Positions 18,680-37,505 of a stretch of DNA of 64,000 nucleotides are shown here, one piece after another. A program made the position numbers and the translations under genes. Numbering within the stretch: position 1 is the stretch's first letter; every line of letters begins with the position of its first letter. The notes beneath the pieces are model-generated. The model saw nothing but the letters and a program-made list of their open reading frames with translations. It was not told the DNA's origin and searched no databases. The stretch is taken from NCBI RefSeq assembly GCF_000337795.1, contig NZ_AOLP01000008.1, positions 124,001-188,000 of the forward strand, written 5' to 3'. Source of the DNA: Haloferax denitrificans ATCC 35960 (lineage in GTDB: Archaea; Halobacteriota; Halobacteria; Halobacteriales; Haloferacaceae).

Positions 18680-18689
18680 GCGCTCGGCA

Positions 18690-18883: not shown

Positions 18884-18974
18884 TGATAGCTTGGTGTCGA
18901 GAACCATGGCTGTTCTTCGAGAGACGTGTATTCTCACGATTTGCCCGTCTGCGCTCGGGAGCACACACACACCC

Positions 18975-19040
18975 CCCTCGCGTTTGTAACGGCTACGCCA
19001 GTCCCTAGGGGAATTCGACACACCCCCCTCGCGTTTGTAA
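18975..19040 (-). repeat. Left origin repeats (two copies)
   Basis: CCCTCGCGTTTGTAA at 18975-18989 and 19026-19040, both preceded by a C-run that pairs with the GGTGG part of the consensus. The second continues into ATCTAGG. They face the six right-hand copies. Confidence 0.85.
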
Positions 19041-19102
19041 ATCTAGGGGCAAAATCAACCGACAATCCCCCGCTCTCCGACCTCCCCCCACACCGATTCG
19101 CG

Positions 19103-19397
19103 TTACATTCGCGAGGGTGGTGTGTCTGCACGGCCGCTTCCGTCGCTCAACGTTACAAACGCGACGGTACTCCCCCGCTCAATTACAAACGCGAGGGTGG
19201 TCTCTCGAAGACCGAGTTACAAACGCGAGTGTACCCCCACCCACCGCGTGTTCCTCGTGGCTGTCTCGCCCGTTACAAACGCGAGGGTGGTGTCTGACGG
19301 TCTTACTTGCGCGATACTACTCGTTGATCGTCGAATACAAAATCAGGACCGAAATACCGCTCAAACGCCCGTATTTGTCGCTGTTACAAACGCGAGT
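19103..19397 (+). repeat. Right origin repeats (six copies)
   Basis: Two full matches to TTACAAACGCGAGGGTGG at 19183-19200 and 19273-19290. Variants are at 19103 (TTACATTCGCGAGGGTGG), 19153 (…GCGACGGT), 19217 (…GCGAGTGT) and 19384 (…GCGAGTCC). The last copy ends 14 bp before the orc TATA box, so Orc binding there could also control its own gene. Confidence 0.85.
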
Positions 19398-19410
19398 CCA
19401 CCCCTTCACC

Positions 19411-19417
19411 TTTATTA
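19411..19417 (+). promoter_or_regulatory. TATA box of orc1/cdc6
   Basis: TTTATTA ends 27 bp before the ATG at 19444, giving a leaderless start. Confidence 0.6.
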
Positions 19418-19443
19418 GGGGTGAGTATGAATACCGAACTCAC

Positions 19444-22642: not shown

Positions 22643-23890
22643 TCAGTCGTACAGCGGGTACTCCTCGGTCAGTTCGTCGACCTTCTCGTCGACGAATCCC
22701 TTGACCGACTCGTCGTGCGGCGCCTCGACGACCTCGTAGATGAGGTCCGCGACGGTCCGGCAGGCCTCCTCGTCGAAGCCGCGGGTCGTCAGCGCGGGCG
22801 TGCCGGCGCGAATCCCGCTGGGGTTGAACGCCGAGCGACTCTCGCCGGGGACCGTGTTGGCGTTGAGGACGATGCCGACCTCTTCGAGCGCCGCTTCCAC
22901 GTCCTTGCCGGTCGTGTCCGGATGCGACGGGCGGAGGTCGACAAGGACTAAGTGCGTGTCAGTTCCGCCGGAGACGAGTTCGAGACCGCGCTCCTGTAGC
23001 CGCTCGCCGAGGGCCGCGGCGTTATCGACGACCTGCGAGGCGTACTCCTCGAACTCGGGGGAAAGCGCCTCGCCGAAGCCGACAGCCTTGCCGGCGACGT
23101 TGTGCAGTATCGGCCCGCCTTGGAGGCCGGGGAAGACCGCGGAATCGACGTCGTCGGCGTGTTCCTCGTCGCACATGATGATGCCGCCGCGACCCGACCG
23201 AATCGTCTTGTGGGTCGAACCGGTGACGAAGTCCGCGATACCGACGGGAGACGAGTGTTCGCCCGCGGCGACGAGCCCCGTGATGTGGGCGATGTCGGCA
23301 AGGTGGTAGGCGTCGACCGCCTCGGCCGCGGCCTGCACGCGCTCCCACTCGACCTCCCGCGGGTACGCGGAGTACCCCGAGATGATGATGTCCGGGTCGA
23401 ACGCCTCGGCTTTCTCGGCGAGTTGCTCGTAGTCGACGTAGCCGGTCTCGGCGTCGACCTCGTACTGCTCGACCTCGTACGTCTTCCCCGCGACGTTCAC
23501 CGGGTGGCCGTGGCTCAGGTGGCCGCCGTGGGTCAAATCGAGCGAGAGAATCTTGTCGCCGGGGTCGAGCACGGCGAGGAACACGCCCATGTTCGCCTGC
23601 GACCCCGAGTGCGGTTGCACGTTGACGTGGTCGGCACCCCAGAGTTCCTTGGCGCGGTCGATGGCGAGCTGTTCGACCTCGTCGGCGTACGCACAGCCGC
23701 CGTAGTACCGGCTCCCCGGGTAGCCCTCGGCGTAGTTGTTCGTCAGCTCCGAGCTCTGGGCCTCCATGACCGCCTCGCTGACGTGGTTCTCGCTCGCTAT
23801 CATGGCGAGCGTGTCGTTCTGTCGCTCGCGTTCGCCCGTCAGCGCGTCGGCGACGGCCGGGTCGGTCTCTCGAACGGTGTCGTAAGGCAT
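22643..23890 (-). CDS. glyA: Serine hydroxymethyltransferase
   Basis: 415 aa from the ATG at 23890; the longer frame upstream lacks coding character. SHMT signatures: MIASENHVSEAV, NNYAEGYPGSRYYGG, NVQPHSGSQANMGVF, and the PLP lysine in VTGSTHKTIRSGRGG. It interconverts glycine and serine with a folate or tetrahydromethanopterin-type C1 carrier. Placed 3.7 kb from a Rieske/sarcosine/dimethylglycine cluster that would produce glycine and C1 units, so it may serve that catabolism in addition to biosynthesis. Confidence 0.95.
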   Translation of the reverse strand: MPYDTVRETDPAVADALTGERERQNDTLAMIASENHVSEAVMEAQSSELTNNYAEGYPGSRYYGGCAYADEVEQLAIDRAKELWGADHVNVQPHSGSQANMGVFLAVLDPGDKILSLDLTHGGHLSHGHPVNVAGKTYEVEQYEVDAETGYVDYEQLAEKAEAFDPDIIISGYSAYPREVEWERVQAAAEAVDAYHLADIAHITGLVAAGEHSSPVGIADFVTGSTHKTIRSGRGGIIMCDEEHADDVDSAVFPGLQGGPILHNVAGKAVGFGEALSPEFEEYASQVVDNAAALGERLQERGLELVSGGTDTHLVLVDLRPSHPDTTGKDVEAALEEVGIVLNANTVPGESRSAFNPSGIRAGTPALTTRGFDEEACRTVADLIYEVVEAPHDESVKGFVDEKVDELTEEYPLYD

Positions 23891-24268
23891 CGTGGATGCA
23901 TCTCGACTCTGCGGTATAACGCTTCGCCGACCCCCGGGACGAGTGGGAACCGACCGAACGGAATCACAACGTGACAGAATCAATACCATCTGTGGTCGGG
24001 TGCCACGGGCGCGGTGGTGGCTCCTCTCACCTGACGTCGAACTGTCCGAATCGGGTTTCTAACGGGTCAAAGCGGTTGATTCGGCACACAGGTCATATCG
24101 GACTCTTCGCCGACCGTCGATAGCTCTATATTGGAACTTCGTCACGTCTCTCACACACCGTGCTAAGAACTATCACAGTCTGCGAGCAGTCCCGAACCCG
24201 AGGCGACGCGCGCGTGCCGTCCCGTCCGTCCCGTCGCGCCGGTCGGCCGACCGCCGAGGTGAGCGCCG
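23891..24268. other. Divergent intergenic region between glyA and the dehydratase
   Basis: 378 bp without a credible gene. CTCTATATTGG (about 24125-24135) is a TATA-like box roughly 135 bp before the dehydratase ATG, which would leave a long leader. GCGTTATACCG around 23910-23922 is a TATA candidate for leftward glyA. Confidence 0.4.
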
Positions 24269-25510
24269 ATGAGTGAGTCAGAATCCCTGCCGGTCTCGTA
24301 CGCCGACATCGAGCGCGCGCGCGAGCGACTCGAAAACGACCGCGTCGTCAAGCGGACGCCGATAGAGCAGAGCACCTCGCTCGGCGACCTCGTCGGCGCG
24401 GACGTCTACCTGAAGATGGAGCACCTCCAGTGGACGGGGTCGTTCAAGACGCGGGGCGCGTACAACAAGATTCGACAGGACGCCGACCGCGGAATCGACG
24501 AGTTCGTGGCCGCGAGCGCCGGCAACCACGCGCAGGGGGTCGCGCTCGCGGCGACCGAGTGCGGGGCCGACTCCACGGTTGCGATGCCGGAGAACGCCCC
24601 GCAGACGAAAATCGACGCGACGCGCGACTACGGTGCGTCGGTCGAACTCGTCGGCGAGGACTTCCAGGAGACGATGGCGTACGCCCAGTCGCTCGCCGAG
24701 GAATCGGACGCCGAGTTCGTCCACGCCTACGACGACCGCGACATCGTCGCCGGACAGGGGACCCTCGGCGTCGAGATGTACCGCGACCTCCCCGAGATGG
24801 ACACCGTGGTCGTCCCCATCGGCGGGGGCGGGCTCATCTCGGGCATCGCCACCGCCATCAAGCACCACGACCCCGAGATTCGCGTCGTCGGCGTGCAGGC
24901 CGCGGGCGCGGAGACGGTCCACGAGAGCCTCGACAAGGGCGTCCCCGTGACGCTCGACGACACAAACACCATCGCGGACGGCATCGCCACCGGCGGCATC
25001 TCCGAGCTGACGCTCCGAACCATCGAGGAACGCGTCGACGAGGTCGTCACGGTCTCGGACGGGGAAATCGCGGAGGCGATTCTCCTGTTGCTCGAACGCG
25101 CCAAGCAGGTTGTCGAAGGGGCCGGTGCCGCCTCCGTCGCCGCCGTGCTGAGCGACGACCTCGACGTCGAGGGCGAGACCGTCATGCCGCTTCTCTGCGG
25201 GGGGAACCTCGACATGACGATGCTCCAGACGGTGCTCGTCCACGCGCTCACGGGCCGTCGCCAGACGCTCCGACTGCGCGTCCGAATCCGGGACGAACCC
25301 GGCGAGATGGCGCGGCTCTCCCGGCTCATCGCCGACCGCGACGCGAACATCCACGACGTTCGCCACGTCCGCGCCGTCGACGCCCTCGACGTCGGCGAGG
25401 CGCACCTCCTGTTCCGTATCGAGACCAAGGGGGCCGAACACGCGGCGGCAATCGTGGACACCATCGAAGACGCGGGCTACGCGGTCGACGACGTCTCCGC
25501 GGAACGCTGA
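24269..25510 (+). CDS. ilvA: Threonine/serine ammonia-lyase with C-terminal ACT domain
   Basis: 413 aa PLP enzyme of fold type II. The PLP lysine is in LQWTGSFKTRGAYNK, the substrate loop is AASAGNHAQGVAL, and the phosphate-binding Gly loop is PIGGGGLISGIA. Residues about 325-405 form an ACT-like regulatory domain (RVRIRDEPGEMARLSRL). It deaminates threonine to 2-oxobutyrate or serine to pyruvate. Its catabolic use together with glyA (glycine to serine to pyruvate) is suggested by position. The length fits the single-ACT form. Confidence 0.9.
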   Translation: MSESESLPVSYADIERARERLENDRVVKRTPIEQSTSLGDLVGADVYLKMEHLQWTGSFKTRGAYNKIRQDADRGIDEFVAASAGNHAQGVALAATECGADSTVAMPENAPQTKIDATRDYGASVELVGEDFQETMAYAQSLAEESDAEFVHAYDDRDIVAGQGTLGVEMYRDLPEMDTVVVPIGGGGLISGIATAIKHHDPEIRVVGVQAAGAETVHESLDKGVPVTLDDTNTIADGIATGGISELTLRTIEERVDEVVTVSDGEIAEAILLLLERAKQVVEGAGAASVAAVLSDDLDVEGETVMPLLCGGNLDMTMLQTVLVHALTGRRQTLRLRVRIRDEPGEMARLSRLIADRDANIHDVRHVRAVDALDVGEAHLLFRIETKGAEHAAAIVDTIEDAGYAVDDVSAER

Positions 25511-25576
25511 TTCCGGCCGCTTTCACGTCTCGGTCGTTGCCGGTCGTCGTCGCCGCGGCGGGGGAAACCAGCGCCG

Positions 25577-26446
25577 CTAGTTCTCGCCGGCCGACTGTCT
25601 GATTCGCGCGACGACGTCGTCACGACCCACGTCGGGGTCGTCGTCGGTCGTGAGGCGTCCCATCACGAACTCCAGCAAGTCGAGGGTCTGGAGCAGTTCG
25701 AGCGCCTCGGTTCGGTCGAGGTCGATGGCTTTCCCGAACTCGCGAATCGTCTTCGCGTCGTTGGCGGCGTCGGCGAGTCGGTCTATCGTCACGGACTCGG
25801 GCAGGCCGATTCCGTCGGCGAGCGCCTCGGGCGACCCGCCTGTGTCGTCCGCGGCCGCCGGTCCCGGAGTTTCCACCGGCGACTCGTCGGCGAGCGACGT
25901 CTCGTAGGAGTCCGGTTCGTGGACTCCCTGTGCGATCATGTACCTGCGGACCGTCTCGTCCGACACGTCCATCTCGAACGCTTCGGCCATCCGTTCGAAC
26001 GTCTCGTACTTGGCGTACACCGCTTCGAGGTACGGCGTGTCCTCGAACGCCGGCACGTTCGGACTCCGCACGCTTTCGAGCGATTCGGCGTCGTCGCCCC
26101 CGGTGGAACCCCCCGTCGGGGACGCGTCCGTCGCGACCGTCACGACGACCGTCGGCTCGGCGTCGAGCGAGAGGTCCGCGGCGTCGACGTCGACGTGTTC
26201 GTGGTCGCTCGGAACGACGTCGTCGATTTCGACCGTGAGCCCGATGGTCCCGTCGGACTCGATTGCGGGTCTCCGGGTCCGCACGGGCGACCCGACTCCG
26301 TCGCTCGACGAGAGTGCGAACTCGACGTCCGCCGATACCCTCGTCTCCGTGACCGCCACGGACGAGTCCCGGACGCTCGCGGCTCCCGTCCGTTCGCACT
26401 CTTCGAGGAATTCCCCCAGTCGCCGAAGCGATGTGCCCACGCTCAT
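25577..26446 (-). CDS. Putative HTH regulator of unknown family
   Basis: 289 aa, not a family I recognise. The N-terminal 130 residues are strand-rich and acidic and could be a ligand-sensing domain. About residues 135-170 carry a homeodomain-like helix-turn-helix (YETFERMAEAFEMDVSDETV followed by RRYMIAQGV). A Gly/Ser/Asp linker leads to a C-terminal helical part with TIREFGKAIDLDRTEALELL, possibly a second winged helix. Divergent from the Bat-type regulator at 26689, so the two may control each other or the neighbouring amino-acid genes. Confidence 0.55.
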   Translation of the reverse strand: MSVGTSLRRLGEFLEECERTGAASVRDSSVAVTETRVSADVEFALSSSDGVGSPVRTRRPAIESDGTIGLTVEIDDVVPSDHEHVDVDAADLSLDAEPTVVVTVATDASPTGGSTGGDDAESLESVRSPNVPAFEDTPYLEAVYAKYETFERMAEAFEMDVSDETVRRYMIAQGVHEPDSYETSLADESPVETPGPAAADDTGGSPEALADGIGLPESVTIDRLADAANDAKTIREFGKAIDLDRTEALELLQTLDLLEFVMGRLTTDDDPDVGRDDVVARIRQSAGEN

Positions 26447-26688
26447 TGTACGGTTCTGCAGACGTCCTGAAGGCCCCTGTAAAGGGGTGTGGAATACTGA
26501 GTCGGTTTATATAGTCCCACAGAATATGCGGCGAAAATTATAAACGAGAATCTGCCATTTCGATTACTGTAATGCGCCATCGGAAATCGATTCTTTTACA
26601 AAGACCACGCTCGCCGCGAGTGACCCGACCGAACCGCTCGACCGGACTGTCGGCAGTCGAATCTCCCCGAGACTGAGGTGTACGTACG
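26447..26688. promoter_or_regulatory. Divergent promoter region between two regulators
   Basis: 242 bp. A hairpin CCCCT-GTAA-AGGGG lies near 26474-26487, and TTTATATA is at 26506-26513. The stretch 26505-26600 is AT-rich compared with the flanking genes. The TATA box is 175 bp before the rightward ATG, so it may serve a leader or a small RNA. Confidence 0.4.
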
Positions 26689-27339
26689 ATGAGCCTGATA
26701 ACCGTCGCCGACATCGCTCACGACGACCTCGCACTGACGCCGACGATTCAGTCGGAGGCCGCGGGGGAAATCGATGTCGTCTCTCAGTCCGGGACCGACC
26801 CCGAAACGGGCCAGTTCTTCTTCGCCGTGAAGAACGCGAACGTCGCCGCGTTCGAAGAGGCGTTGGAGGCCGACCACACGGTCCGCGACTGGTGGCTCGT
26901 CTCCGAACGGGAGGACTCCGTCGTCTATCGCATCGGCCACACGAACGACGCGATACTGCTGTCGCCGATGGTCACGGAACTCGGCGGACTCATGCTCGAC
27001 GCGTGCAGTAACGAGACGTCCGGGTGGCGGGTCCGTCTCCAGTTGTCGGACCGCGAGGCGCTGTCGGAGCTCTGGGAGTACTGCGAGGCGAACGACATCT
27101 CCTTCGACCTGAATCGGATGTTCCAGCAGGACGGCTGGATGAACGGCGAGCCGAGTAAGCTGACCGACGCACAGCGCGACGCGCTCGTGGCCGCCTACGA
27201 GCACGGCTACTTCGAGGAGCCGCGAGAGGCGGCGCTAGACGACCTCTCGGACGTGCTGGGCATCTCGCCGACGGCGGTCAGCGGGCGTATCAGGAGGGGG
27301 ACCTCGGAGCTGGTCGAATCGATTCTCGTCGAGGAGTGA
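26689..27339 (+). CDS. Bat-type (HTH_10) transcriptional regulator
   Basis: 216 aa. The C-terminal 55 residues (KLTDAQRDALVAAYEHGYFEEP followed by LSDVLGISPTAVSGRIRRG) are the HTH_10 domain typical of haloarchaeal Bat-like activators. The N-terminal 150 residues are the GAF/PAS-like module seen in short members of the family, with no PAS heme motif visible. A second regulator of the same class is at 39205. Probably controls the adjacent amino-acid/betaine genes. Confidence 0.82.
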   Translation: MSLITVADIAHDDLALTPTIQSEAAGEIDVVSQSGTDPETGQFFFAVKNANVAAFEEALEADHTVRDWWLVSEREDSVVYRIGHTNDAILLSPMVTELGGLMLDACSNETSGWRVRLQLSDREALSELWEYCEANDISFDLNRMFQQDGWMNGEPSKLTDAQRDALVAAYEHGYFEEPREAALDDLSDVLGISPTAVSGRIRRGTSELVESILVEE

Positions 27340-27360
27340 CCGCCAAAAGGGGTACGGGAG

Positions 27361-27735
27361 TCAGACCGCGAGCACGTGGTCGTCCCGCGGTTCGTAGATT
27401 TCGCCGCTCATCCGCAGGTCGCGGACGGCGTCGAGCGTGTCGCCGATGGCGACGCCGGCGTCCGCGAGCGCCGCGGCGAGTCGGCCGAGTTCGACCCCGT
27501 CGGGGTGGTTCTCGCCGAGTTCGACGAGGGCCTGTTTCACGTCGTCGGTCTCGACGTCGGCGTCGAACGCGACGCGCTCCCACTCGACGTCGTGGCCGGT
27601 GACGTTCGCGTGTCGCCGGTACAGTTCGACGGCGTCGTTCGGCTCTGCGACCGCGACGTGGAGGTCGCACGACGGGCAGGTGACGACCCCGGCGCGGGGC
27701 TTTTCCGCCAGTTCGGCGTCCCCGTCGTCAGGCAT
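27361..27735 (-). CDS. Small C2H2-zinc-finger protein co-transcribed with the Rieske oxygenase
   Basis: 124 aa. The N-terminus has CPSC, then 18 residues, then H-x5-H (RRHANVTGHD), a zinc-finger pattern common in haloarchaeal small proteins. The rest is helical with a possible wing (SGEIYEPRDDHVLAV). Its start overlaps the Rieske gene stop by 8 nt, so the two must be one transcript. It occupies the place where a ferredoxin-reductase partner would be expected. The function is unknown: local regulator or assembly factor are both possible. Confidence 0.7.
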   Translation of the reverse strand: MPDDGDAELAEKPRAGVVTCPSCDLHVAVAEPNDAVELYRRHANVTGHDVEWERVAFDADVETDDVKQALVELGENHPDGVELGRLAAALADAGVAIGDTLDAVRDLRMSGEIYEPRDDHVLAV

Positions 27736-28870
27736 TGTAGGCGTCCTGCGCGAGCCGGTGGAGCTTGTGGACGGTGTGTTCGTTCGGCCCGAGCTGTGCC
27801 TGCCCGAGCGCGCCGGATTTGAGTCCCTCGTACTGTCGTTCGACGAGTTCGAAGTCCTCCTCCTGAAGCTGTCGGCTCGTCTGGACGAAGTTCTCTTCTT
27901 CGTCCGACAGGTCGGCGTCGCGGAAGTAGTAGTCCGCGATGAGCTGGAAGCGCCCCTCGTCGATGGGGTCGATGATGTACGTGCCGTAGCCGTCGGCGGT
28001 GCCGTACATGTTGACCGTGAAGTTCGGCCAGAAGTAGTAGAACTTGGCCTCGTGTTCGGGGTGGATGCGCATCTCGTCGTCGACGTCCTCTCTGTGCTTG
28101 TAGTGGAGCACCCAGTGGTAGTCGTTGACTTCGAGTTCGGACTCCATGAGTTCGAGCCCCCGCACCCAGTCTTGGTGGTTCGCCTGACAGTGGTCGCACT
28201 CCGAGTAGTTCCCGCTGAACGTCTTCCAGTTGCACTCGACCTCGGAGACGTAGCGCCGGGCGTGTTCGTACTCGCCGAGCGGCAGGTCTTCGAGTTCCGT
28301 CTTCATCGACCCGGCCTGCTCGGCAAGCGAGAGGCTCGGTTCGTCCTCGAAGTTGACGAACACGAGCGGCCCGATGGCGTCGGTGTTGACTTCCATGAGG
28401 CCGTTTTCCTCGGGGTCGAGTTCGCTGACGGCGTCGTCGTCGAGGTCGGGGTTCAGACTCGCCTCCTCGAAGCTCTTCGGAGTGCTCTGGAGCGACCCGT
28501 CGAGTTCGTACGCCCAGAGGTGGTACGGGCAGGTGATTCGACTGAGGCTTCCGGGGTCGGTCATCGGCGTCTCGTCGAGCATCTTCGACCCGCGGTGGGC
28601 ACAGACGTTGTAGAACGCCCGCACGTCGCCGTCGCCGTCGCGGGTGACGATAATCTGCTTGTCCCCGATGGTCCGCGTGAAGTAGTCGCCCGCGTCCGGG
28701 ATGTGGGTCTCGTGACCCGCGTAGACCCAGTACTGACCGAACACTTTCTCCTTTTCCATCTCGTGGACTTCGGGGTCCGTGAAGTACTTCGCCGGTAACG
28801 CGTTCGTTTCCGCGGTGATGTCGGCACTTACCGCACCGATTTCGTCACGACCGTTGTTCCACCGTGTCAT
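27728..28870 (-). CDS. Rieske non-heme iron oxygenase (glycine betaine monooxygenase GbcA-like)
   Basis: 380 aa from the ATG at 28870. The Rieske [2Fe-2S] site is C90-x-H92 and C114-x2-H117. The mononuclear iron site has H227 and H232 in NYSECDHCQANHQDW plus an acid in the late QEEDFELVERQ segment. The ENYxECxHCxxNH-type motif and the length fit the GbcA/stachydrine/carnitine group acting on quaternary amines, not the aromatic dioxygenases. The flanking sarcosine-oxidase-like, BCCT and dimethylglycine-dehydrogenase-like genes point to glycine betaine. No reductase gene is nearby. Confidence 0.82.
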   Translation of the reverse strand: MTRWNNGRDEIGAVSADITAETNALPAKYFTDPEVHEMEKEKVFGQYWVYAGHETHIPDAGDYFTRTIGDKQIIVTRDGDGDVRAFYNVCAHRGSKMLDETPMTDPGSLSRITCPYHLWAYELDGSLQSTPKSFEEASLNPDLDDDAVSELDPEENGLMEVNTDAIGPLVFVNFEDEPSLSLAEQAGSMKTELEDLPLGEYEHARRYVSEVECNWKTFSGNYSECDHCQANHQDWVRGLELMESELEVNDYHWVLHYKHREDVDDEMRIHPEHEAKFYYFWPNFTVNMYGTADGYGTYIIDPIDEGRFQLIADYYFRDADLSDEEENFVQTSRQLQEEDFELVERQYEGLKSGALGQAQLGPNEHTVHKLHRLAQDAYNA

Positions 28871-28912
28871 GGGAGGAAGAAACACACATCCGAGGAAAAG
28901 GATTCGTCGGAA

Positions 28913-28924
28913 ATAGTGGACCCG
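28913..28924. promoter_or_regulatory. Shared 12-bp promoter motif (Rieske copy)
   Basis: ATAGTGGACCCG, also found at 32608-32619 before the dimethylglycine-dehydrogenase-like gene. Here it lies 43-54 bp before the Rieske ATG and abuts the TATA-like CTTATACGG read on the minus strand. Confidence 0.55.
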
Positions 28925-29069
28925 TATAAGTGGCAGTGGATAGTCGGCCGCGAGGACGACAGCCGCCCGTGACCGCCGCTGTCGGCCGAACGGGAGCCGT
29001 CTCCCTGAAAAAGGGGCTCCGTGATACAGGTCAAGAGTGAAGGGGGGACGTTCCGAACCGCCGGACACC

Positions 29070-30212
29070 ATGAGTGTCCGTGACAACCGATACGACGTCG
29101 CCGTCGTCGGGGTCGGCGGGATGGGAAGCGCGACCGCGTACCACCTCGCCGACCGCGGCCTCGACGTCGTCGGTCTCGAACGCTACGACATCCCTCACTC
29201 GCAGGGGTCGTCCCACGGTATCACGCGCATCATCCGTCGCGCGTACTACGAACACCCCTCGTACGTCCCGCTCATCGAGCGGGCGTACGACCTCTGGGAC
29301 GACCTCGCCGACGAGACCGGCCGCGAGGTCATCCACCGAACCGGCTCTATCGACGCCGGCCCGGAGGACAACGACGTGTTCGCCGGCTCGAAACGCTCCT
29401 GTGAGGAACACGACATCCCCCACGAGGTGCTGACCGGGGCGGAGGTCAACGGGCGGTTCCCCGGCTACGAACTCCCCGAGGACTACCGCGCGGTCTACCA
29501 GGAAGACGGCGGGTTCGTCGTCCCCGAGCAGGCCATCATCGCCCACACCGAGGCCGCACAGGCCCGGGGTGCCGAGATTCGCGCGCGCGAGCGGGTCGAA
29601 GACTGGGCGGAGACGAACGACGGCGGCGTGCGCGTCCGCACCGACCGGGGCGTGTACGTCGCGGACGCGCTCGTGCTCGCCGCGGGCGCGTGGAACTACA
29701 AGCTCGCCGACGCGCTGGACGGCCTCGCGGTCCCCGAGCGACAGGCGCTCGCGTGGTTCCAGCCCGAGTCGCCGGCGACGTTCGCGCCCGAGGAGTTCCC
29801 CGTCTGGAACCTCAGCGTCCCCGAGGGGCGGTTCTACGGGTTCCCGGTCCACGACGTGCCGGGGTTCAAACTCGGCAAGTACCACCACCGCGACGAGGAG
29901 GTCGACCCCGACGACTTCGACCGCGAGCCGAACCGCGCCGACGAGGCGATACTCCGGGACGTCACGGAGAAGTACTTCCCGGAGGCCGCGGGGCCGACGA
30001 TGTCGCTTTCGACGTGTATGTTCACGAACTCGCCGGACGAGCATTTCATCCTCGACACGCTCCCCGACCACCCGCAAGTCGCCGTGGGTGCCGGCTTCTC
30101 GGGACACGGCTTCAAGTTCGCAAGCGTCATCGGCGAAATCCTCGCCGACCTCGCCGTCGACGGCGACAGCGACCTGCCGCTCGACATGTTCTCGCTCGAC
30201 CGGTTCGAGTGA
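29070..30212 (+). CDS. Monomeric sarcosine oxidase-like flavoprotein
   Basis: 380 aa from the ATG at 29070. The FAD-binding VVGVGGMGSATAYHLADRG is at the N-terminus, followed by HSQGSSHGITRIIRRAYYEH, the MSOX/MTOX-specific loop. Cys316 in STCMFTNSPDEHF is where this family attaches FAD covalently. It should oxidise N-methyl amino acids, most plausibly sarcosine to glycine, formaldehyde and H2O2. Divergent from the Rieske gene across a 199-bp region. N-methyltryptophan or pipecolate oxidation are family alternatives. Confidence 0.87.
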   Translation: MSVRDNRYDVAVVGVGGMGSATAYHLADRGLDVVGLERYDIPHSQGSSHGITRIIRRAYYEHPSYVPLIERAYDLWDDLADETGREVIHRTGSIDAGPEDNDVFAGSKRSCEEHDIPHEVLTGAEVNGRFPGYELPEDYRAVYQEDGGFVVPEQAIIAHTEAAQARGAEIRARERVEDWAETNDGGVRVRTDRGVYVADALVLAAGAWNYKLADALDGLAVPERQALAWFQPESPATFAPEEFPVWNLSVPEGRFYGFPVHDVPGFKLGKYHHRDEEVDPDDFDREPNRADEAILRDVTEKYFPEAAGPTMSLSTCMFTNSPDEHFILDTLPDHPQVAVGAGFSGHGFKFASVIGEILADLAVDGDSDLPLDMFSLDRFE

Positions 30213-30501
30213 CGACGGGCGGTCGAGCTTGTCGCTCGTCAACTGATTCGGCGATTTAACCTTCGTAACTTTTCTTCATTTGCGTATAAATGCCACTATT
30301 ATCGAAGACCACTCGTTAAGATGTGTAATCCCAATGGGTTGGTTGAATCGTGAGGGGTGTGGACTCGTGTCACGGGACGGGTGGCCGCGTCGAAGTCGAC
30401 ATCGGCCGTCCTCGGCGGTGACGACGGGTGGCCCCGAAGCGGGGACAACGACATGAACGTACACGAACTGCAGTGGCGGTCATCCACGGAGGGTGTATCG
30501 T

Positions 30502-32256
30502 ATGGCGAATAGCAACGACTCGGCCGACCAATCGACGAGCGACCTACAGGCGGACGTGTTCTACCCCGAGACGGAGCGCGAACCCGGCGACGGGAACATC
30601 CAGCGGTGGGGGTTCGACATCCATCCCGTCGTCTTCCCGGTCGCGCTCTTGATAATCGGCGTCTTCGTCGCGGCGACGCTCGTTCTCGGCGAGCAGGCGG
30701 CGAGCGTCTACTCGGCCGTCAGGGGCTTTTTCGAGGGCAACTTCGGGTGGTTCTATCTCCTGTCGGTGAACCTCTTTATCGTCGTCTTGGCGTACTTCGC
30801 GCTGAGTAAGTTCGGCGAGATAACCCTCGGCGGCGTCGAGGCCGAAACGGAGTTCAGCGACTTCTCGTGGATGGCGATGCTGTTCAGCGCGGGCATGGGC
30901 ATCGGGCTCATGTTCTACAGCGTCTCGGAGCCGCTGTACTACTTCACTAACGTCCCCGGCTTCTTCGACGCCGAGGCCGGGACCGGTGGCGCGGGCATCG
31001 CCGCGATGACGCAGACGTTCTTCCACTGGGGGTTCCACCCGTGGGCCATCTACGGCCTCGTCGGACTGGGGCTCGCGTTCTTCTCGTTCAACAGGGGGCT
31101 CCCGCTCACGTTCCGGTCGATTTTCTGGCCGCTCCTCGGCGAGCGAATCTACGGCTGGCCGGGCCACCTCATCGACCTCGTGTCGGTGTTCGCGACGCTG
31201 TTCGGCCTCGCCACGTCGCTCGGCCTCGGCGTCGCACAGATAAACACGGGCCTGTCGTACATCCTCGGCGAGAGCATGCTCGGTCTCGTGAGCGTTCCGA
31301 ACAACACCGGGATGCAAATCGCGCTCATCGCCGCGATTACCCTCATCGCCACCGCCTCCGTCGCGGCCGGCCTCGAAGACGGTATCCGGCGTCTGAGCAC
31401 GGTGAACGTCAGTTTGATGTTCCTCCTGTTGGCGTTCGTGCTCGTCGCCGGCTCGACGATGAGCATCTTCGGCGCGTGGGTGCAGGGCCTCGGGAACTAC
31501 TTCAGCGACTTCCTCTCGCTCGCGTTCTTCACCGGGACGCTCGGCGACGGCGCGTCCACGGTCAACGGCTGGACGGTGTTCTACTGGGCGTGGTGGATCG
31601 CCTGGTCGCCGTTCGTCGGTATGTTCGTCGCGCGCATCTCGAAGGGGCGGACGGTCCGCGAGTTCGTCCTCGGCGTGTTCGTCCTTCCGTCGCTGTTCTC
31701 GACGCTCTGGCTCTCGGCGTTCGGCGGGAGCGCGCTGTTCAACTCGCTTCAGGGTAACGGCGCGGTCCTCGCCACCTACGGCGAGGCCGGACAGACGGTG
31801 GCGATGTTCGCGCTTCTCCAACAGTTCCCGTTCAGCGCCGTCTCGGGACTGCTCGCCGTGACGCTCGTGGTGACGTTCTTCGTGACCTCCTCCGATTCGG
31901 GGTCGCTCGTCGTCGACCACCTCACGTCGGGCGGCAAGCACAACGTGCCGCGGACTCAACGCATCTTCTGGGCGGTCACCGAGGGCCTCGTCGCGTCGCT
32001 TCTCCTCTACGGCGGCGGCCTCGGCGCGCTCCAGACGGCGGCCATCGCCACGGGGTTCCCGTTCGCCGTCGTCCTCGTCGTCATGTGCTACACGGTGTAT
32101 CTCGGTCTCGACAAGGAGTACGAACTCCTGCAGTCCGAGGAGTTCGCCGAGCGAATCGAGGACTTGGCGGACGAGGACATCGACATCGACGTCGGTCGCT
32201 CTCGGACGTCGGTCGTGACGAACGTCCGGGAGAACCCCGGCGCGTCGGACGATTGA
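30502..32256 (+). CDS. BCCT-family betaine/choline/carnitine transporter
   Basis: 584 aa from the ATG at 30502, preceded by GGAGG 10 nt upstream; a GTG three codons earlier is less likely. Twelve-span pattern, with the BCCT hallmarks GMGIGLMFYSVSEPLYYF and the Trp-rich stretch YWAWWIAWSPFVGMFVAR followed by ISKGRTVREF. The GMGIG form points to sodium coupling. The C-terminus is short and acidic, without the long osmosensing tail of BetP, which fits a nutrient-uptake role. It supplies the substrate for the neighbouring demethylation genes. Confidence 0.92.
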   Translation: MANSNDSADQSTSDLQADVFYPETEREPGDGNIQRWGFDIHPVVFPVALLIIGVFVAATLVLGEQAASVYSAVRGFFEGNFGWFYLLSVNLFIVVLAYFALSKFGEITLGGVEAETEFSDFSWMAMLFSAGMGIGLMFYSVSEPLYYFTNVPGFFDAEAGTGGAGIAAMTQTFFHWGFHPWAIYGLVGLGLAFFSFNRGLPLTFRSIFWPLLGERIYGWPGHLIDLVSVFATLFGLATSLGLGVAQINTGLSYILGESMLGLVSVPNNTGMQIALIAAITLIATASVAAGLEDGIRRLSTVNVSLMFLLLAFVLVAGSTMSIFGAWVQGLGNYFSDFLSLAFFTGTLGDGASTVNGWTVFYWAWWIAWSPFVGMFVARISKGRTVREFVLGVFVLPSLFSTLWLSAFGGSALFNSLQGNGAVLATYGEAGQTVAMFALLQQFPFSAVSGLLAVTLVVTFFVTSSDSGSLVVDHLTSGGKHNVPRTQRIFWAVTEGLVASLLLYGGGLGALQTAAIATGFPFAVVLVVMCYTVYLGLDKEYELLQSEEFAERIEDLADEDIDIDVGRSRTSVVTNVRENPGASDD

Positions 32257-32291
32257 CGACCGAATCACCGAACGATGACTCGACGCTCTCG

Positions 32292-32450
32292 ATGAACGCG
32301 CTCGCTGTCGGTTCGGCGGCGTTCGCGGTCTCTCTTTTCGTCGTTGCGCTGTTTGCGATGACCGTCGGTGAGCTACGGGGCGCGGGGCTCGCGTTCCTGA
32401 GCGCCAGCCTCGTCATCTACCTCAGAGAGAAGTACCTCGTCGGCGACTGA
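32292..32450 (+). CDS. Small membrane protein downstream of the BCCT transporter
   Basis: 52 aa from the ATG at 32292, or 65 aa if a TTG at 32253 overlapping the BCCT stop is used. Two hydrophobic spans (GSAAFAVSLFVVALFAMTV and GAGLAFLSASLVIYL) with the basic end REKYLVGD. Too short for family assignment. The 35-nt spacing suggests co-transcription with the transporter and a possible accessory role. Confidence 0.6.
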   Translation: MNALAVGSAAFAVSLFVVALFAMTVGELRGAGLAFLSASLVIYLREKYLVGD

Positions 32451-32483
32451 CGCGCGCCGGCGAACGCGACTCGTCGTCACGCG

Positions 32484-32534
32484 ATTCTCACCGGCGCACA
32501 ATTCTCGCTGGCGCACCATTCTCACCGGCGCACA
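32484..32534. repeat. Three 17-bp tandem repeats before the dimethylglycine-dehydrogenase-like gene
   Basis: ATTCTCACCGGCGCACA, ATTCTCGCTGGCGCACC and ATTCTCACCGGCGCACA follow each other directly; units 1 and 3 are identical. A decayed partial copy (ACTCTTGCCG) follows. Confidence 0.75.
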
Positions 32535-32607
32535 ACTCTTGCCGAGACCGGCGTTCGTCCGCGACGAGACCCGGCTCTCGTCACCCCCCGGTACGTATAC
32601 ACCTCAG

Positions 32608-32633
32608 ATAGTGGACCCGGAGAGATATCCGGG
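32608..32633. promoter_or_regulatory. Shared 12-bp motif and inverted repeat in the DMGDH-like promoter
   Basis: ATAGTGGACCCG at 32608-32619 matches the Rieske promoter copy exactly. It runs into the inverted repeat CCCGGA-GAGATA-TCCGGG at 32616-32633. GTATAC at 32595-32600 is a TATA candidate upstream, and the ATG is at 32659. Confidence 0.5.
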
Positions 32634-32658
32634 GGCCGCAGTCACTACTGTTTGGTAC

Positions 32659-35172
32659 ATGAACACATGGTCTACGTTTCCCGAACGCGCCGGAACGGTC
32701 GTCGTCGGGGCCGGCTGTGTCGGCTGTAGCGCGGCGTATCACCTCGCCGAGTCGGGCCGCGAAGACGTCGTCGTCCTCGACCGCGGACCGCTGTTCGAGA
32801 CGGGGGGTTCGACGTCTCACGCTCCCGGACTCGTGTTCCAGACGGCCGGGAACAAGCTGATGACGGAGATGGCGTCGTACACGCGCGACCTCTACGACGG
32901 GTTCGGCGACTTCCGGACGTGCGGCGGCATCGAAGTCGCCTACTCCGAAGCGCGCTGGGACTTCCTCAAGCGCAAGCGCGAGTGGGGACAGTCCTACGGC
33001 ATCGACGAGGGCGAACTCCTCACGCCCGAGGAGGTCGAAGCGCGCGTCCCGCAGATAAACCCCGACGTCATCTACGGCGGGTACTACGTCCCCTCGGACG
33101 GGAAGGCTGACGCCGTCAGCGCCGCCGAGTCGATGGCGGAGGAGGCGCGCGAGGCCGGCGTCGAGTTCTACGGCCACACCGAGGTCACGGACATCGACGT
33201 CACCGACGGCAGTATCGACGCCGTCGACACCGAACACGGCCGCATCGAGGCCGACGAGGTGCTCGTCGCCACGAACATCTGGGGGCCGCTGTTCGGCGAG
33301 ATGGTCGGCACGGACATCCCGCTCGTTCCCTGCGCGCACCAGTATCTCGTCTCCGACGAACTGGACGAACTCGACGGCGCAGAGCGCGAAATCGAACAGC
33401 CGCTCCTCCGGCATCAGGACCACTCGCTGTACTACCGCCAGCACGGCGAGCGCTACGGTATCGGCTCGTACAACCACGAGTCGCTTCTCGTCGACCCGGC
33501 GGACATCTACGGTCCCGACAAGCTCGACGACCTCGGACTCGAATACCCGTCGCTCCGGGAGTTCACGGAGGAGCACTTCTACGAGAACACCCACCCGGAC
33601 CACGACCGGTCGGCGTTCGACGCCGCGAGCGAACTCGTCCCCGGCTTCGAGGACTGCGAGTGGACCTCCGCCATCAACGGGATGTTCTCGTTCACGCCCG
33701 ACGGCATGCCCATCCTCGGACCGGACGAGGACACCGAGGGACTCTGGTGGGCGCTCGCCATTTGGGTCACGCAGTCCGGCGGCGCGGGCGACATCGTCGC
33801 CAGCTGGATGGAAGACGGGACGCCGCGGCTCGACGGCTCCCGCGTCAACGCTTCCGGCGCGCACGTCTCTCGGTTCCAGTCGCACACGGGCAGTCGAGAG
33901 TACACCTACGGGCGCGGCGCACAGCAGTACCGCGAGGTGTACCAGCTCATCCACCCGCGCGAGCAACCGAGCGGACAGCGCGCCCTCCGCCGGAGCCCGT
34001 TTTACGACCGGCAGGCCGACCTCGGTGCGGAGTTCTACGACAGCGACGGCTGGGAGGTCCCGCAGTGGTACGAGTCCAACGAGACGCTCCTCGAAACGTA
34101 CGACGTGCCGGACCGCCCCGACTGGCTCTCGCAGAACTGGTCGAAGGTCCAGGGCGCGGAACACCAGCATCTCCGCGAGAAGGTCGGCATGGTCGACATG
34201 ACGACGTTCACGCCCATCGAAGTGACGGGGCCGGGCGCGCTTGAGTTCCTGCAAGGGCTCCTGACGAACGATATGGACGTCACGCCGGGCCGGATGCGCT
34301 ACTCCGCGATGCTCAACGAGGACGGCGGCGTGCTCGCCGACCTGACCGTCGCCCGCCTCGGCGACGACCGGTTCGTGCTGTTCACCGGCGGCGGAAGCTC
34401 GGCGACGCTCCACTCGCGGTGGGTCACGGAGCACGCGCCCGACGACGGCTCCGTCGACGTGACCGCACACGTCTCCAGTCGGACCGGTATCGGCGTCTTC
34501 GGACCCGACTCCCGGAAGGTGCTTTCCGACCTCGTCGAGGCCGACCTCTCGAACGACGAGTTCCCGTTCTACTCCGCACAGGAGACCTACCTCGGAAGCA
34601 TCCCCGTGACGATGCTTCGACTCTCGTACGCCGGCGAACTCGGCTGGGAAATCTACGCCCCGACCGAGTACGGAAGCCAGCTCTGGGACGCGATTCGAGA
34701 GGCCGGCGAGGAGTACGACATCGCGCCGGTCGGCTGGGCCGCGCTCGACTCGACGAGCATGGAGAAGGGATTCCGACTCTGGGGGACGGACCTCACGCCC
34801 GAGCACAATCCGTACGAGGCCGGCATCGGCTTCGCGGTCGACCTCGACACCGACTTCGTCGGGAAGGCGGCGCTGGTGGAGGACAAGGAGGGCGACGGTC
34901 CGAGCGACCGAATCGTCCCGATAACGCTCGACGAGGAGGAGACCGTCGTCGACGCGGGCCATCCGGTGGTCGCCGACGGCGACGTCGTCGGCTACTGCTG
35001 TCGGGCGGACTACGGCTACACCATCGACGCCGGAATCGCGTACGCGTACCTCCCCGAGCAGTACGCCAGTTCGGGGCAGGACATCGAAATCCGGTACGAG
35101 GGCGACGCCCACCCCGCGACGGTCCGGTCCGGGCCGCTTTTCGACCCCGACCGAGACAAGATGATTCGGTGA
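32659..35172 (+). CDS. Dimethylglycine/sarcosine dehydrogenase-like FAD + GcvT fusion
   Basis: 837 aa from the ATG at 32659. Residues 13-32 are the FAD-binding VVVGAGCVGCSAAYHLAES. GGSTSHAPGL places His54 where mitochondrial DMGDH carries covalently bound FAD. The C-terminal half (from about 510) is an aminomethyltransferase GcvT-like folate domain (FTPIEVTGPGALEFLQGLLTN; LSYAGELGWEIYAPTEYGSQ). This fusion oxidises dimethylglycine or sarcosine and passes the methyl group to the C1 carrier. Dimethylglycine is the better guess since a monomeric sarcosine oxidase is next door. Confidence 0.88.
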   Translation: MNTWSTFPERAGTVVVGAGCVGCSAAYHLAESGREDVVVLDRGPLFETGGSTSHAPGLVFQTAGNKLMTEMASYTRDLYDGFGDFRTCGGIEVAYSEARWDFLKRKREWGQSYGIDEGELLTPEEVEARVPQINPDVIYGGYYVPSDGKADAVSAAESMAEEAREAGVEFYGHTEVTDIDVTDGSIDAVDTEHGRIEADEVLVATNIWGPLFGEMVGTDIPLVPCAHQYLVSDELDELDGAEREIEQPLLRHQDHSLYYRQHGERYGIGSYNHESLLVDPADIYGPDKLDDLGLEYPSLREFTEEHFYENTHPDHDRSAFDAASELVPGFEDCEWTSAINGMFSFTPDGMPILGPDEDTEGLWWALAIWVTQSGGAGDIVASWMEDGTPRLDGSRVNASGAHVSRFQSHTGSREYTYGRGAQQYREVYQLIHPREQPSGQRALRRSPFYDRQADLGAEFYDSDGWEVPQWYESNETLLETYDVPDRPDWLSQNWSKVQGAEHQHLREKVGMVDMTTFTPIEVTGPGALEFLQGLLTNDMDVTPGRMRYSAMLNEDGGVLADLTVARLGDDRFVLFTGGGSSATLHSRWVTEHAPDDGSVDVTAHVSSRTGIGVFGPDSRKVLSDLVEADLSNDEFPFYSAQETYLGSIPVTMLRLSYAGELGWEIYAPTEYGSQLWDAIREAGEEYDIAPVGWAALDSTSMEKGFRLWGTDLTPEHNPYEAGIGFAVDLDTDFVGKAALVEDKEGDGPSDRIVPITLDEEETVVDAGHPVVADGDVVGYCCRADYGYTIDAGIAYAYLPEQYASSGQDIEIRYEGDAHPATVRSGPLFDPDRDKMIR

Positions 35173-35335: not shown

Positions 35336-35710
35336 TCACTCGTCTTCGACGGCCTTCAGGTCGAGCCGCGGGGCAAACGACTCGTACGTCTCGTCGCTCG
35401 ACACGATAGTGTCGCCATCGGACTCGACGAGATGGAGCGCGTCGAAGGGCGTGAACCCGTGGTCTTCCACGTAGGTCGCGGCCGTGAGAACCGTGTCCAC
35501 GTCCCCGCGCACTTCCAACAGCGCGGCGACGTTCGCGACGACCCGCTCCGTGTCCCGCTCTTCTCGATACGCGACCATGAGGAGTTCGATGAGCGTGAAC
35601 TGCGACGTCCACAGCTCGTCTCGGTGGTTTCGGTAGACCGCCTCTGCGGCGTCGCCGAGCCAGTCCTCGTCCTTGATGAGCGCCAGCAGGAAGTCCGTCT
35701 CGGCGTACAT
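35336..35710 (-). CDS. vapC: VapC-type PIN toxin
   Basis: 124 aa, standard VapC size. Asp6 in YAETDFLLALIK, the acidic centre LIELLMVAYRE and DALHLVESDGDTIVSSD give the PIN active site. The start is one base after the antitoxin stop. Likely a site-specific RNase. Confidence 0.85.
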   Translation of the reverse strand: MYAETDFLLALIKDEDWLGDAAEAVYRNHRDELWTSQFTLIELLMVAYREERDTERVVANVAALLEVRGDVDTVLTAATYVEDHGFTPFDALHLVESDGDTIVSSDETYESFAPRLDLKAVEDE

Positions 35711-35941
35711 TCAGCGCCCGGCCTCGTCTATCGCCGCGTTCCGGGCTCCGTGGCGGAGTTCTTCGGCCGTCTTCTCGACGTCCGCGAACTCGGTGCGGAG
35801 CGCATCGAGCGGGTCGTCCTCGATTGGTATCAGCTTGATACCGTCGTGCAGTTGGACGATGCGGTAGTGTTCGCCGTACCGCTCTCTGACCTCTTTGGGG
35901 AGCGTGAGGCGTCCGCGACCGTCCAGCGTCGCTTCGGACAT
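35711..35941 (-). CDS. vapB: AbrB/SpoVT-type VapB antitoxin
   Basis: 76 aa from the ATG at 35941. SEATLDGRGRLTLPKEVRERYG is the swapped-hairpin AbrB DNA-binding motif; the acidic helical C-terminus would neutralise VapC. A start 9 codons upstream is possible but adds no motif. Confidence 0.85.
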   Translation of the reverse strand: MSEATLDGRGRLTLPKEVRERYGEHYRIVQLHDGIKLIPIEDDPLDALRTEFADVEKTAEELRHGARNAAIDEAGR

Positions 35942-36096
35942 ACGTTCTACTATGATGGGTAGAAACAAGAGTTTTCCCCATATCTCGATTCACGACCCAC
36001 TCGGATAGAACCCTCCCGCTCCCGAACGCTCCCGCTGTCGGTGTCACTCGGCTTCTGTCCGGCGCTCCGAGTTTTGACGGAGGCAGATTATCCGAA

Positions 36097-36519
36097 TTAT
36101 TCGGTGTCCTCGTCGTCGACGCCGCGCTGTTCGAGGACGCGTTCGACGATTTCTTCGGGGTGTTCGGTCGCCACGGCGAGCGCGGCGTTGTGGAGTTCGC
36201 TCTTCGTGACGCCCTTGAGTCCGTGGTCGCGGGTCAGTTCGCGCTCCACGTCGTAGGTGATGATGTCGTCGAACTCGTCGGCGACCGCTTCGAGCACGTA
36301 CAGCGCTTTGTGGACGGTCTCGTCGAACTCGAAGGCGGGGCGCTCGCGGGGGTCGAGCGGCTCTGTGGACGCCGATTCCGACGCTGACTCGGCTTCCGAT
36401 TCGACCGCGTCGTCGGGCTCGGCGTCTTCGGGTTCCGGTTCGGGTTCCGGCGCTGGCTCGGAGGCGGCCTCCCCGCTTCCCATCGCGGCGTCGAGGTCGC
36501 CGAAGGGGTCTTCGCTCAT
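36097..36519 (-). CDS. Acidic partner protein of ParA (ParB-like role)
   Basis: 140 aa from the ATG at 36519, which overlaps the parA stop by ATGA. The first 60 residues are an extremely acidic Pro/Glu/Ala/Ser linker. The last 75 (FDETVHKALYVLEAVADEF; VTKSELHNAALAVATEHPEEI) are helical and could be a DNA-binding or dimerisation domain. There is no ParB nuclease motif. Haloarchaeal plasmids commonly have such a small gene after parA, so I infer a centromere-binding or adaptor role. Confidence 0.6.
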   Translation of the reverse strand: MSEDPFGDLDAAMGSGEAASEPAPEPEPEPEDAEPDDAVESEAESASESASTEPLDPRERPAFEFDETVHKALYVLEAVADEFDDIITYDVERELTRDHGLKGVTKSELHNAALAVATEHPEEIVERVLEQRGVDDEDTE

Positions 36520-37379
36520 CGGGCCACCTCGCCTGCTTCGACGATTTGGGCGAGTTCGTCGTAGCACGCCAACTGGTCGCAGGTGCTGTCGTAGTCCCGC
36601 AGGGGCATGTGCTCGCGAATCGACGCGTCGATGGCCGACCGGTGCCGAATCCCCGGCTTCGGCAGGTCGCCGTCCCACTCGCCGTCGTCGATGGCCTCGA
36701 ACACGTCCGGGTCGGTGTACGCGAAGTTCGGGAGCTTCGAGGCGATGTTCGGCTTCGAGACGAGCGCCTCCACGAGGCGTCTCGTCGGGCGGTCGTGGTC
36801 GATTCGGTCCCGGAGGTCGGTCGGCACGACCGCGAGGATTTCGAGGTCGAAGTGTTCGCGCGCGGGCGTGATGAGTCGTTTGACGGTCTTTTCGAGTCCC
36901 GAGAGCGCCCCCGACTCGGGGCGCATCGGCAAGACGAGGTTCTGCGTGGCGTACAGCGCGTTGTCGTTGAGCTTCCCGCGCGCCGCGGGGCAGTCCACGA
37001 CGACGTAGTCGTAGTCGTCGCCGAGGAGCGGATCGATGACGCGCTGTTTGAGGCGCGCCGACCCCATCATCACGCCGCCGAGGTCGGACTCGACCTGTTC
37101 GATGCGGTCGTTCGACGGGAGGAGGTCGATTTCGAAGTCGGTCTCCAAGATGAGCTCACGCGGCTCCAACTCGGCGTCGTCGAGGAGCACGTCGCCGAGG
37201 TGCGCTTCCGAGTAGAACTCCTCGCCGAACCCGAGGCCCGTCGTGGTGTGTCCGTTCGGGTCGAGGTCCACGAGCAGGACGTCGCTTCCCCGGTGTGCGA
37301 GTTCGCGGGCGAGGTTGATGGAGGTCGTCGACTTGCCGATACCGCCTTTGAGGAGACAGACGCTGACTGCACGTGACAT
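36516..37379 (-). CDS. parA: ParA-family partition ATPase
   Basis: 287 aa from the ATG at 37379. Deviant Walker A KGGIGKSTTSINLA, with DLDPNGHTTTGLG (A') and VVVDCPAARGKLND (Walker B), are those of ParA/Soj proteins. Pairs with the overlapping small acidic protein to segregate the replicon. Its promoter side is an AT-rich 126-bp region shared with the SLC13-like gene. Confidence 0.9.
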   Translation of the reverse strand: MSRAVSVCLLKGGIGKSTTSINLARELAHRGSDVLLVDLDPNGHTTTGLGFGEEFYSEAHLGDVLLDDAELEPRELILETDFEIDLLPSNDRIEQVESDLGGVMMGSARLKQRVIDPLLGDDYDYVVVDCPAARGKLNDNALYATQNLVLPMRPESGALSGLEKTVKRLITPAREHFDLEILAVVPTDLRDRIDHDRPTRRLVEALVSKPNIASKLPNFAYTDPDVFEAIDDGEWDGDLPKPGIRHRSAIDASIREHMPLRDYDSTCDQLACYDELAQIVEAGEVAR

Positions 37380-37505
37380 GATGGGGATATCCGTGCTAGC
37401 GAGATTCTCGGCACAGTTGAAATAATTATGGTTACCTCCGCTCTTTGGGAAACCCACCTATTCTAAATAATTCGAGCAATCCAAATAATCTACAGTCGGC
37501 GAGCT
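37380..37505. promoter_or_regulatory. AT-rich divergent region before parA (possible centromere)
   Basis: AAATAAT is repeated at 37420, 37465 and 37483. CGAGATTCTCG at 37400-37410 is a short dyad. TATA-like ATAATTATTT (minus strand) is about 40 bp before the parA ATG. The position and AT content suit a parS-type site or simply two promoters. Confidence 0.45.

Follow-up and report, generated by a model that had tools for sequence, protein, structure and literature searches.

Can haloarchaea consume glycine betaine, an organic solute widespread in hypersaline waters, which they are usually viewed as importing or ignoring? The question is raised by a gene block at positions 22643-35172 of a 64,000-nucleotide stretch of Haloferax denitrificans ATCC 35960 (contig NZ_AOLP01000008.1; the whole stretch is called the window below). 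Genes for a BCCT transporter, a Rieske non-haem iron oxygenase, a fusion protein resembling dimethylglycine oxidase (DMGO) and a flavin adenine dinucleotide (FAD) enzyme resembling monomeric sarcosine oxidase (MSOX) lie there close to glyA and a threonine/serine ammonia-lyase gene. The block is real: all of its genes are intact open reading frames (ORFs) with high GC content at third codon positions (GC3), and profile matches bear out the close neighbourhood described in the initial annotation. Betaine catabolism is the best reading of this gene context, with a probability of about 0.6. The block is widespread in haloarchaea; the idea of betaine use is partly in print, in a proposal that does not include the Rieske enzyme, and an apparent split form of that enzyme in relatives is the most novel thing found.

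According to this reading, a plasmid-like haloarchaeal module would import glycine betaine through the BCCT carrier and then demethylate it stepwise. The Rieske oxygenase would oxidize one N-methyl group of betaine, yielding dimethylglycine and formaldehyde, and the DMGO-like fusion would convert dimethylglycine to sarcosine while passing the methylene group to tetrahydrofolate (THF). The MSOX-like oxidase would then produce glycine, which GlyA and the ammonia-lyase would take through serine to pyruvate, and the HTH_10 protein would be the likely local regulator. The same sequence of steps had been proposed in the initial annotation, and it stands as the most economical reading, given the Rieske/DMGO linkage in 19 genera. 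Gene identities, metal-ligand residues, conserved linkage and phylogenetic position are observations; all substrates, the electron route, the HTH_10 protein as regulator and any function of the small partner protein are inferred.

We searched 391 haloarchaeal genomes from 86 genera and obtained a Rieske match (E<=1e-30) in 72 genomes from 22 genera. Four genomes with distant copies (L080-L083, 41-44% identity by tblastn) were left out, which gave 68 genomes from 21 genera. Gene counts refer to stretches of ~20 kb around the Rieske gene, some of them not centred on it. The stretches were labelled with 29 query proteins; partial and low-identity matches were counted as present (for BCCT, down to ~26% identity), six Rieske-matching ORFs shorter than 250 amino acids (aa) were left out, and the FolE labels are void, the query having been in the wrong frame (five stops). 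A DMGO-type gene lies in the stretch in 60 of the 68 genomes and in 19 of the 21 genera holding this Rieske family, so the grouping is not due to chance. Two oxidases (DMGO/DMGO2-type plus MSOX or DMGO1-type) are present in 56 genomes and the HVO_B0008-family small protein in 67, followed by a BCCT-family match (52), IlvA (47), MSOX (39), HTH_10 (38), GlyA (24) and a folate or one-carbon (C1) gene (24). The Rieske and oxidase genes remain linked in 19 genera despite varied gene order. At the genome level, the Rieske gene and DMGO co-occur strongly (46/22/18/305 genomes with both, Rieske only, DMGO only and neither; Fisher p=2e-28, shared ancestry being ignored), and the DMGO class search undercounts, because only two candidates were scored for each genome (E<=1e-200).

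Individual genomes extend this picture. Six Haloferax records contain copies with 96-99% identity to the Rieske protein of the window, and both the oxygenase domain and the family of the small partner were matched in Haloferax volcanii as control hits. On pNG700 of Haloarcula marismortui, the block is surrounded by genes for dihydrofolate reductase, GcvT, methylenetetrahydrofolate reductase, folP, formate-THF ligase and folE, while the Haloterrigena turkmenica version has FolD, pabA and pabB nearby.

The DMGO gene also occurs by itself. We examined DMGO loci in 12 of the 18 genomes that possess DMGO and no Rieske gene, chosen for the absence of the latter, and found BCCT in seven, IlvA in eight and folate/C1 genes in ten, as expected if a dimethylglycine core gained the Rieske oxygenase as a further, initial step. 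The pattern would fit such a core with the oxygenase as an optional entry step. These Rieske-negative loci, together with the eight of 68 Rieske genomes whose stretch lacks a DMGO-type gene, would also suit a block that consumes dimethylglycine and sarcosine, with the Rieske enzyme acting on an unrelated methylated compound and betaine being merely imported. The presence of Rieske and oxidase genes together in 19 genera, in varied order, argues against that explanation and makes it improbable.

The oxygenase itself was classified by its residues, profile scores and phylogeny. Both metal sites are present (CAHR..CPYH, ECDHCQANH and the Asp ligand), and the Rieske and Ring_hydroxyl_A scores are both above the Pfam cut-offs. 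The protein shows the group V set, as given in the available text of PMC7948474 and PMC10952381: CxH..CxxH, a His-His-Asp iron site, a bridging Glu and a Cys-X-X-Cys beside it; E205, C206 and C209 are conserved. Its nearest solved relative is CntA (6y8j, 138.6 bits). The label 'GbcA-like' given in the initial annotation has to be withdrawn. Against the GbcA model NF058607 the protein scores 130.8 bits, over residues 21-240 only, where the cut-off is 670 and a Halomonas control protein reaches 850.5. At CntA position 203 the window protein has Tyr, as do 26 of the 29 haloarchaeal rows (the iron site is lost in the remaining three); GbcA, Stc2 and four other rows of clade Vb have Asn. An aromatic residue at this position characterizes clade Va (carnitine, choline, benzalkonium) and Asn clade Vb (GbcA, BmoA, Stc2), according to the available text of Quareshy et al. 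2020 (PMC7948474).

The phylogenetic tree comprises 45 rows, namely 27 of 91 haloarchaeal copies, the window protein and 17 references (one of them haloarchaeal), plant-type choline monooxygenases not being included; alignment A1 covers 27 of 43 loci, four of them represented by iron-only copies described below. Most of the reference Rieske proteins are untested, and CntA, YeaW and Stc2 represent assayed families only through their names or an adjacent annotation. GbcA, Stc2 and their kin form one clade (support 100/99), and the haloarchaeal proteins form their own (100/100), on the CntA side (100/98) and outside CntA. Union of the haloarchaeal clade with GbcA/Stc2 was rejected by the approximately unbiased (AU) test (p=0.000141); long branches remain, and the exact sister of the haloarchaeal clade is unsettled. 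The initial annotation had called for a phylogeny against GbcA, CntA and Stc2 and held that a firm placement with another substrate group would speak against it. The outcome is partly of that kind: the protein falls outside GbcA/Stc2, and it does not fall inside the carnitine group either. Judged by sequence, the oxygenase is a separate haloarchaeal branch of group V, nearer to CntA and not GbcA.

This position makes it necessary to consider a CntA-like enzyme acting on carnitine or gamma-butyrobetaine, or cleaving betaine at the methylene group to trimethylamine and glyoxylate, next to a separate dimethylglycine/sarcosine route served by DMGO and MSOX. Tyr203 and the side of the tree agree with it, as do a malate synthase near one H. 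turkmenica Rieske copy and the trimethylamine transporter TmaT as the best solved match of the BCCT protein. CntA is also the best fold match of the Rieske model (Z 28.8), only 1.7 above Stc2 (27.1); the fold does not decide between the two, because several aromatic oxygenases lie between them, and the model is only fair (mean predicted local distance difference test, pLDDT, 64.7). In the carnitine pocket (Y203, Y225, F258, N270, Y295, Y315, F319), however, only Y203 and N270 are kept; Y225, F258, Y295 and Y315 are not conserved, and F319 aligns to a gap where the alignment is uncertain. CntB had no match in 78 loci and the window, and an aldehyde dehydrogenase, the class of CntA's neighbour, was matched in only six of these loci; the window has just two such matches, at 9839-11254 and 62211-63614. 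Since 60 of 68 genomes also have a DMGO-type gene nearby, a CntA-like role is unlikely.

The aromatic residue at position 203 is also common to choline monooxygenases (available text of PMC7948474), which would agree with an enzyme converting choline to betaine aldehyde, with a dehydrogenase feeding the same block. The two aldehyde dehydrogenase matches in the window could supply that step; they lie at least 16 kb off, outside the conserved block. The BCCT protein has GMGIGLMFY and HPWAIY stretches as in BetP, whereas in the solved high-affinity choline transporter the first stretch contains an Asp and the second is not preceded by a Trp. A choline monooxygenase is a distinctly poor candidate, and we return to betaine as the likely substrate.

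The transporter and oxidases are compatible with uptake and demethylation of betaine. After TmaT, the best solved matches of the BCCT protein are choline and betaine BCCTs; it passes the general model TIGR00842 (464.3 over 407.55) and does not pass the glycine betaine model NF047988 (515.8 bits, cut-off 650). The fusion protein is predicted to be a dimethylglycine oxidase, since it combines the DAO-FAO_M-GCV_T-GCV_T_C architecture with full-length homology to the Arthrobacter-type N,N-dimethylglycine oxidase 1pj5 (query residues 13-833). The Asp that is replaced by Ala in 3gsi, a point mutant of DMGO, is retained in it. The MSOX-like protein does not pass TIGR01377 for monomeric sarcosine oxidase (322.1 bits, cut-off 479.65) and passes PRK11259 (507.9 over 257), a model labelled N-methyl-L-tryptophan oxidase; it is closer to solved sarcosine oxidases than to N-methyltryptophan oxidase (Table 1). 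FolD is present in the genome.

For electron supply, tblastn with CntB, Stc4, a ferredoxin and the 214-aa FAD_binding_6 protein of this genome found no GbcB/CntB-like reductase in the 78 loci and the window, though the bacterial queries may miss distant archaeal reductases. A Priestia reductase matched only once, weakly, at the end of L069, and the annotated features of four named relatives include no such reductase. The initial annotation had called the block complete, which is too strong a word for a block with no adjacent oxygenase reductase. The genome contains one FAD_binding_6 protein, adjoining an open frame that by eye resembles a 2-oxoacid:ferredoxin oxidoreductase alpha subunit, and Fer2 at seven places, none on the contig of the window; Pyr_redox_2 was not searched genome-wide. 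Having no reductase beside it, the oxygenase is probably fed by the cell's [2Fe-2S] ferredoxins, and electrons would then probably pass straight from ferredoxin to the oxygenase.

Several of these observations weigh against betaine catabolism. GbcA orthology is rejected on the NF058607 score, Tyr203, the tree and the AU test; Tyr203 places the protein with the clade Va trait and not with betaine and stachydrine demethylases, and most other CntA pocket residues differ too. A dedicated reductase beside the oxygenase was rejected on the tblastn searches described above. The eight Rieske genomes with no DMGO-type gene nearby and the 18 genomes with DMGO and no Rieske gene loosen the association, and a formate-THF ligase query that gives matches in relatives gave none in this genome. 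Finally, negative results with betaine are given for H. walsbyi and H. utahensis in the available text of Anderson et al. 2011 (PMC3102087), neither organism being shown to hold this Rieske gene.

A separate line of evidence comes from paralogues of the oxygenase. In 16 of the 72 Rieske-positive genomes, and in one more identified by a genus search, a paralogue possesses the iron-site motif and lacks the Rieske ligands (loci L074-L078, L150, L056, L059, L061, L062, L064, L066-L069 and L079). The CxH motif is lost and the CPYH stretch deleted in this iron-only form, and 14 of the 17 copies classified are 336 aa long. Five of the 16 genomes and the extra genome also contain a tandem partner that keeps the Rieske motif and has lost the iron-site motif. 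These split pairs occur in L074-L078 and L150, all from a single genus, probably Natronococcus, in which the nine genomes searched comprise six with the split pair, two with an intact gene and one with no match.

Compared with the intact H. turkmenica gene, Rieske-only genes show identities of 82-87% (Rieske part) and 43-50% (catalytic part), and iron-only genes of 87-97% (catalytic part) and 51-62% (remainder); two irregular copies in L073, one resembling a broken intact gene, make an exception to the iron-only ranges. The ratio of nonsynonymous to synonymous substitution rates (dN/dS), a simple pairwise estimate from five sequences per class (ten pairs each, one pair with few synonymous changes), follows the same division. 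In Rieske-only genes it is 0.04-0.28 (Rieske part) and 0.36-0.79 (catalytic part), in iron-only genes 0.02-0.15 (catalytic part) and 0.18-0.50 (Rieske remnant), and in intact controls 0.00-0.12 (catalytic) and 0.08-0.20 (Rieske). Values below 1 in the degenerate domains mean that constraint is relaxed, not absent.

Decay of the 336-aa paralogues was considered and rejected, given the length of exactly 336 aa in 14 of 17, the open frames and the low catalytic dN/dS in the five measured. All 17 genomes with an iron-only paralogue also have a Rieske-bearing partner by match, which is broken over contig ends in G191, irregular in G356 and recognized by match only, not motif, in G164. From domain-wise selection and motif loss, the split genes appear to encode two complementary subunits of one enzyme; each active site would need the products of both tandem genes. 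A literature search for heteromeric Rieske-lacking oxygenases found nothing relevant. We tentatively suggest, with less than even confidence, that the oxygenase of this block is a second betaine N-demethylase with a separate derivation; general ferredoxin would feed it, a winged-helix partner would aid it, and in relatives it would have been duplicated into iron-only and Rieske-only subunits.

This partner, the HVO_B0008-family protein, is encoded directly after the Rieske gene and on the same strand in 72 of 74 copies, some of them from duplicate records. The gap between the two genes is -17 to 311 bp (median 15), and in the window they overlap by 8 bases. The small gene is missing from the initial annotation and should be counted as part of the block. 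Seven genomes have a PF25214 match and no Rieske match, two of them barely above the family cut-off, and four Rieske genomes have no PF25214 match. The C-terminus is modelled as a winged helix (mean pLDDT 88.8; best Z 7.6 over 60 residues), while the N-terminal half is barely covered by the fold matches listed. A role as an electron carrier was rejected on account of this modelled winged helix and the absence of the second Cys in Haloarcula-type copies (alignment A2, 26 of 39 small-protein ORFs). Our guess is an assembly factor or a local regulator. A literature search for HVO_B0007-9 gave no match.

Table 1. Genes of the block and evidence for their assignment
Gene product	Coordinates	Strand	Evidence
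GlyA, serine hydroxymethyltransferase (SHMT)	22643..23890	-	SHMT 489.6 bits (Pfam); PRK00011 575 over 335
IlvA-type threonine/serine ammonia-lyase	24269..25510	+	TIGR01127 446.7 over 378.75
BAT/HTH_10 regulator	26689..27339	+	PF04967, PF15915
HVO_B0008-family small protein	27361..27735	-	PF25214/PF25215; N-terminal CxxC/HxxxxxH stretch, C-terminal winged helix (modelled)
Rieske oxygenase ([2Fe-2S], non-haem iron) of the quaternary-ammonium type (group V), proposed to demethylate betaine	27728..28870	-	Rieske 64.0, Ring_hydroxyl_A 67.9 bits
MSOX-like FAD enzyme, proposed sarcosine to glycine	29070..30212	+	7exs (bacterial) 310 bits, MSOX 296, N-methyltryptophan oxidase 206
BCCT transporter, BetP-like signature, proposed betaine uptake	30502..32256	+	PF02028 587 bits
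DMGO-like DAO+FAO_M+GCV_T+GCV_T_C fusion, proposed dimethylglycine to sarcosine plus methylene-THF	32659..35172	+	1pj5 593 bits

The glyA frame opens upstream at 23989, its likely start being 23890. The MSOX-like and Rieske genes are divergent, with 199 bp between them; in Halarchaeum a TnpB gene (L007:13542-14795) lies between the two. Proteins of ~400 aa with no Pfam match are encoded near the Rieske gene at L009:9616-10815 and L010:13173-14402 and recur in relatives. On both sides of the block are genes for TATA-binding protein (TBP), Orc/Cdc6 and ParA (18113-20676 and 36516-37457), as on a haloarchaeal megaplasmid, which suggests a plasmid-like replicon. Adjoining the block is a PIN-domain protein (35336-35968) whose upstream partner weakly resembles MazE; the two are likely a toxin-antitoxin pair. 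Farther on are genes of an oligopeptide-type ATP-binding cassette (ABC) transporter (39976-45988), including a long open frame from 42944 whose apparent start is in a shadow frame ahead of its ATPase part.

The initial annotation knew of no described archaeal pathway of such layout, a view that has to be corrected. Anderson et al. 2011 (PMC3102087) raised the use of betaine, dimethylglycine and sarcosine for H. marismortui, H. walsbyi, H. volcanii and H. turkmenica on the basis of DMGO adjoining BCCT genes; the terms 'Rieske' and 'ring-hydroxyl' are absent from its available text. In the accessible part of a salt-lake metagenome study, GbcA, GbcB and sarcosine oxidase are among betaine-metabolism features assigned 7% to Euryarchaeota. 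Within the open-access literature covered, we found no proposal of haloarchaeal betaine, dimethylglycine or sarcosine use besides that of Anderson et al. The occurrence of the Rieske/DMGO block in 19 of 86 sampled genera, together with the H. volcanii matches, makes betaine consumption directly testable in a genetic model. The apparent split paralogues, with one metal site per gene, offer a natural test of inter-subunit electron transfer in Rieske oxygenases.

The aerobic betaine pathway of bacteria consists of GbcAB/BmoAB, dimethylglycine dehydrogenase, sarcosine oxidase, SHMT and serine dehydratase. The haloarchaeal block has the same outline, with the Rieske enzyme first, FAD enzymes next and GlyA and a dehydratase last; it differs in its non-GbcA Rieske protein, in the lack of a GbcB-like reductase alongside, and in single-chain DMGO and MSOX-type oxidases. 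Arthrobacter reportedly possesses a group of DMGO and sarcosine genes, said to have been described by Meskys in 2001; the haloarchaeal DMGO strongly matches the solved dimethylglycine oxidase (Table 1), and what the haloarchaeal block has in addition is a Rieske lineage of its own together with the HVO_B0008-family partner. CntA (group Va) is the best sequence and fold match of the Rieske protein, with Y203, E205, C206, H208, C209, H213, N270 and D323 kept, yet identity is ~25-28%, other pocket residues differ, and CntA's neighbours CntB and semialdehyde dehydrogenase are absent from the haloarchaeal block. A plasmid of Priestia megaterium H2 (L087), a hypersaline-lake bacterium, carries the same four genes in a row (DMGO-type oxidase, solA, Rieske and BCCT); its Rieske protein, with F203, groups with an actinomycete protein and not with haloarchaea. 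A precedent for half of the split is NdmC of caffeine demethylation, a catalytic subunit lacking a Rieske cluster (available text of PMC10380055), as is the haloarchaeal 336-aa paralogue. The Rieske domain of that system is on the reductase NdmD, whereas in haloarchaea it would be on a paralogous oxygenase that has lost its iron site.

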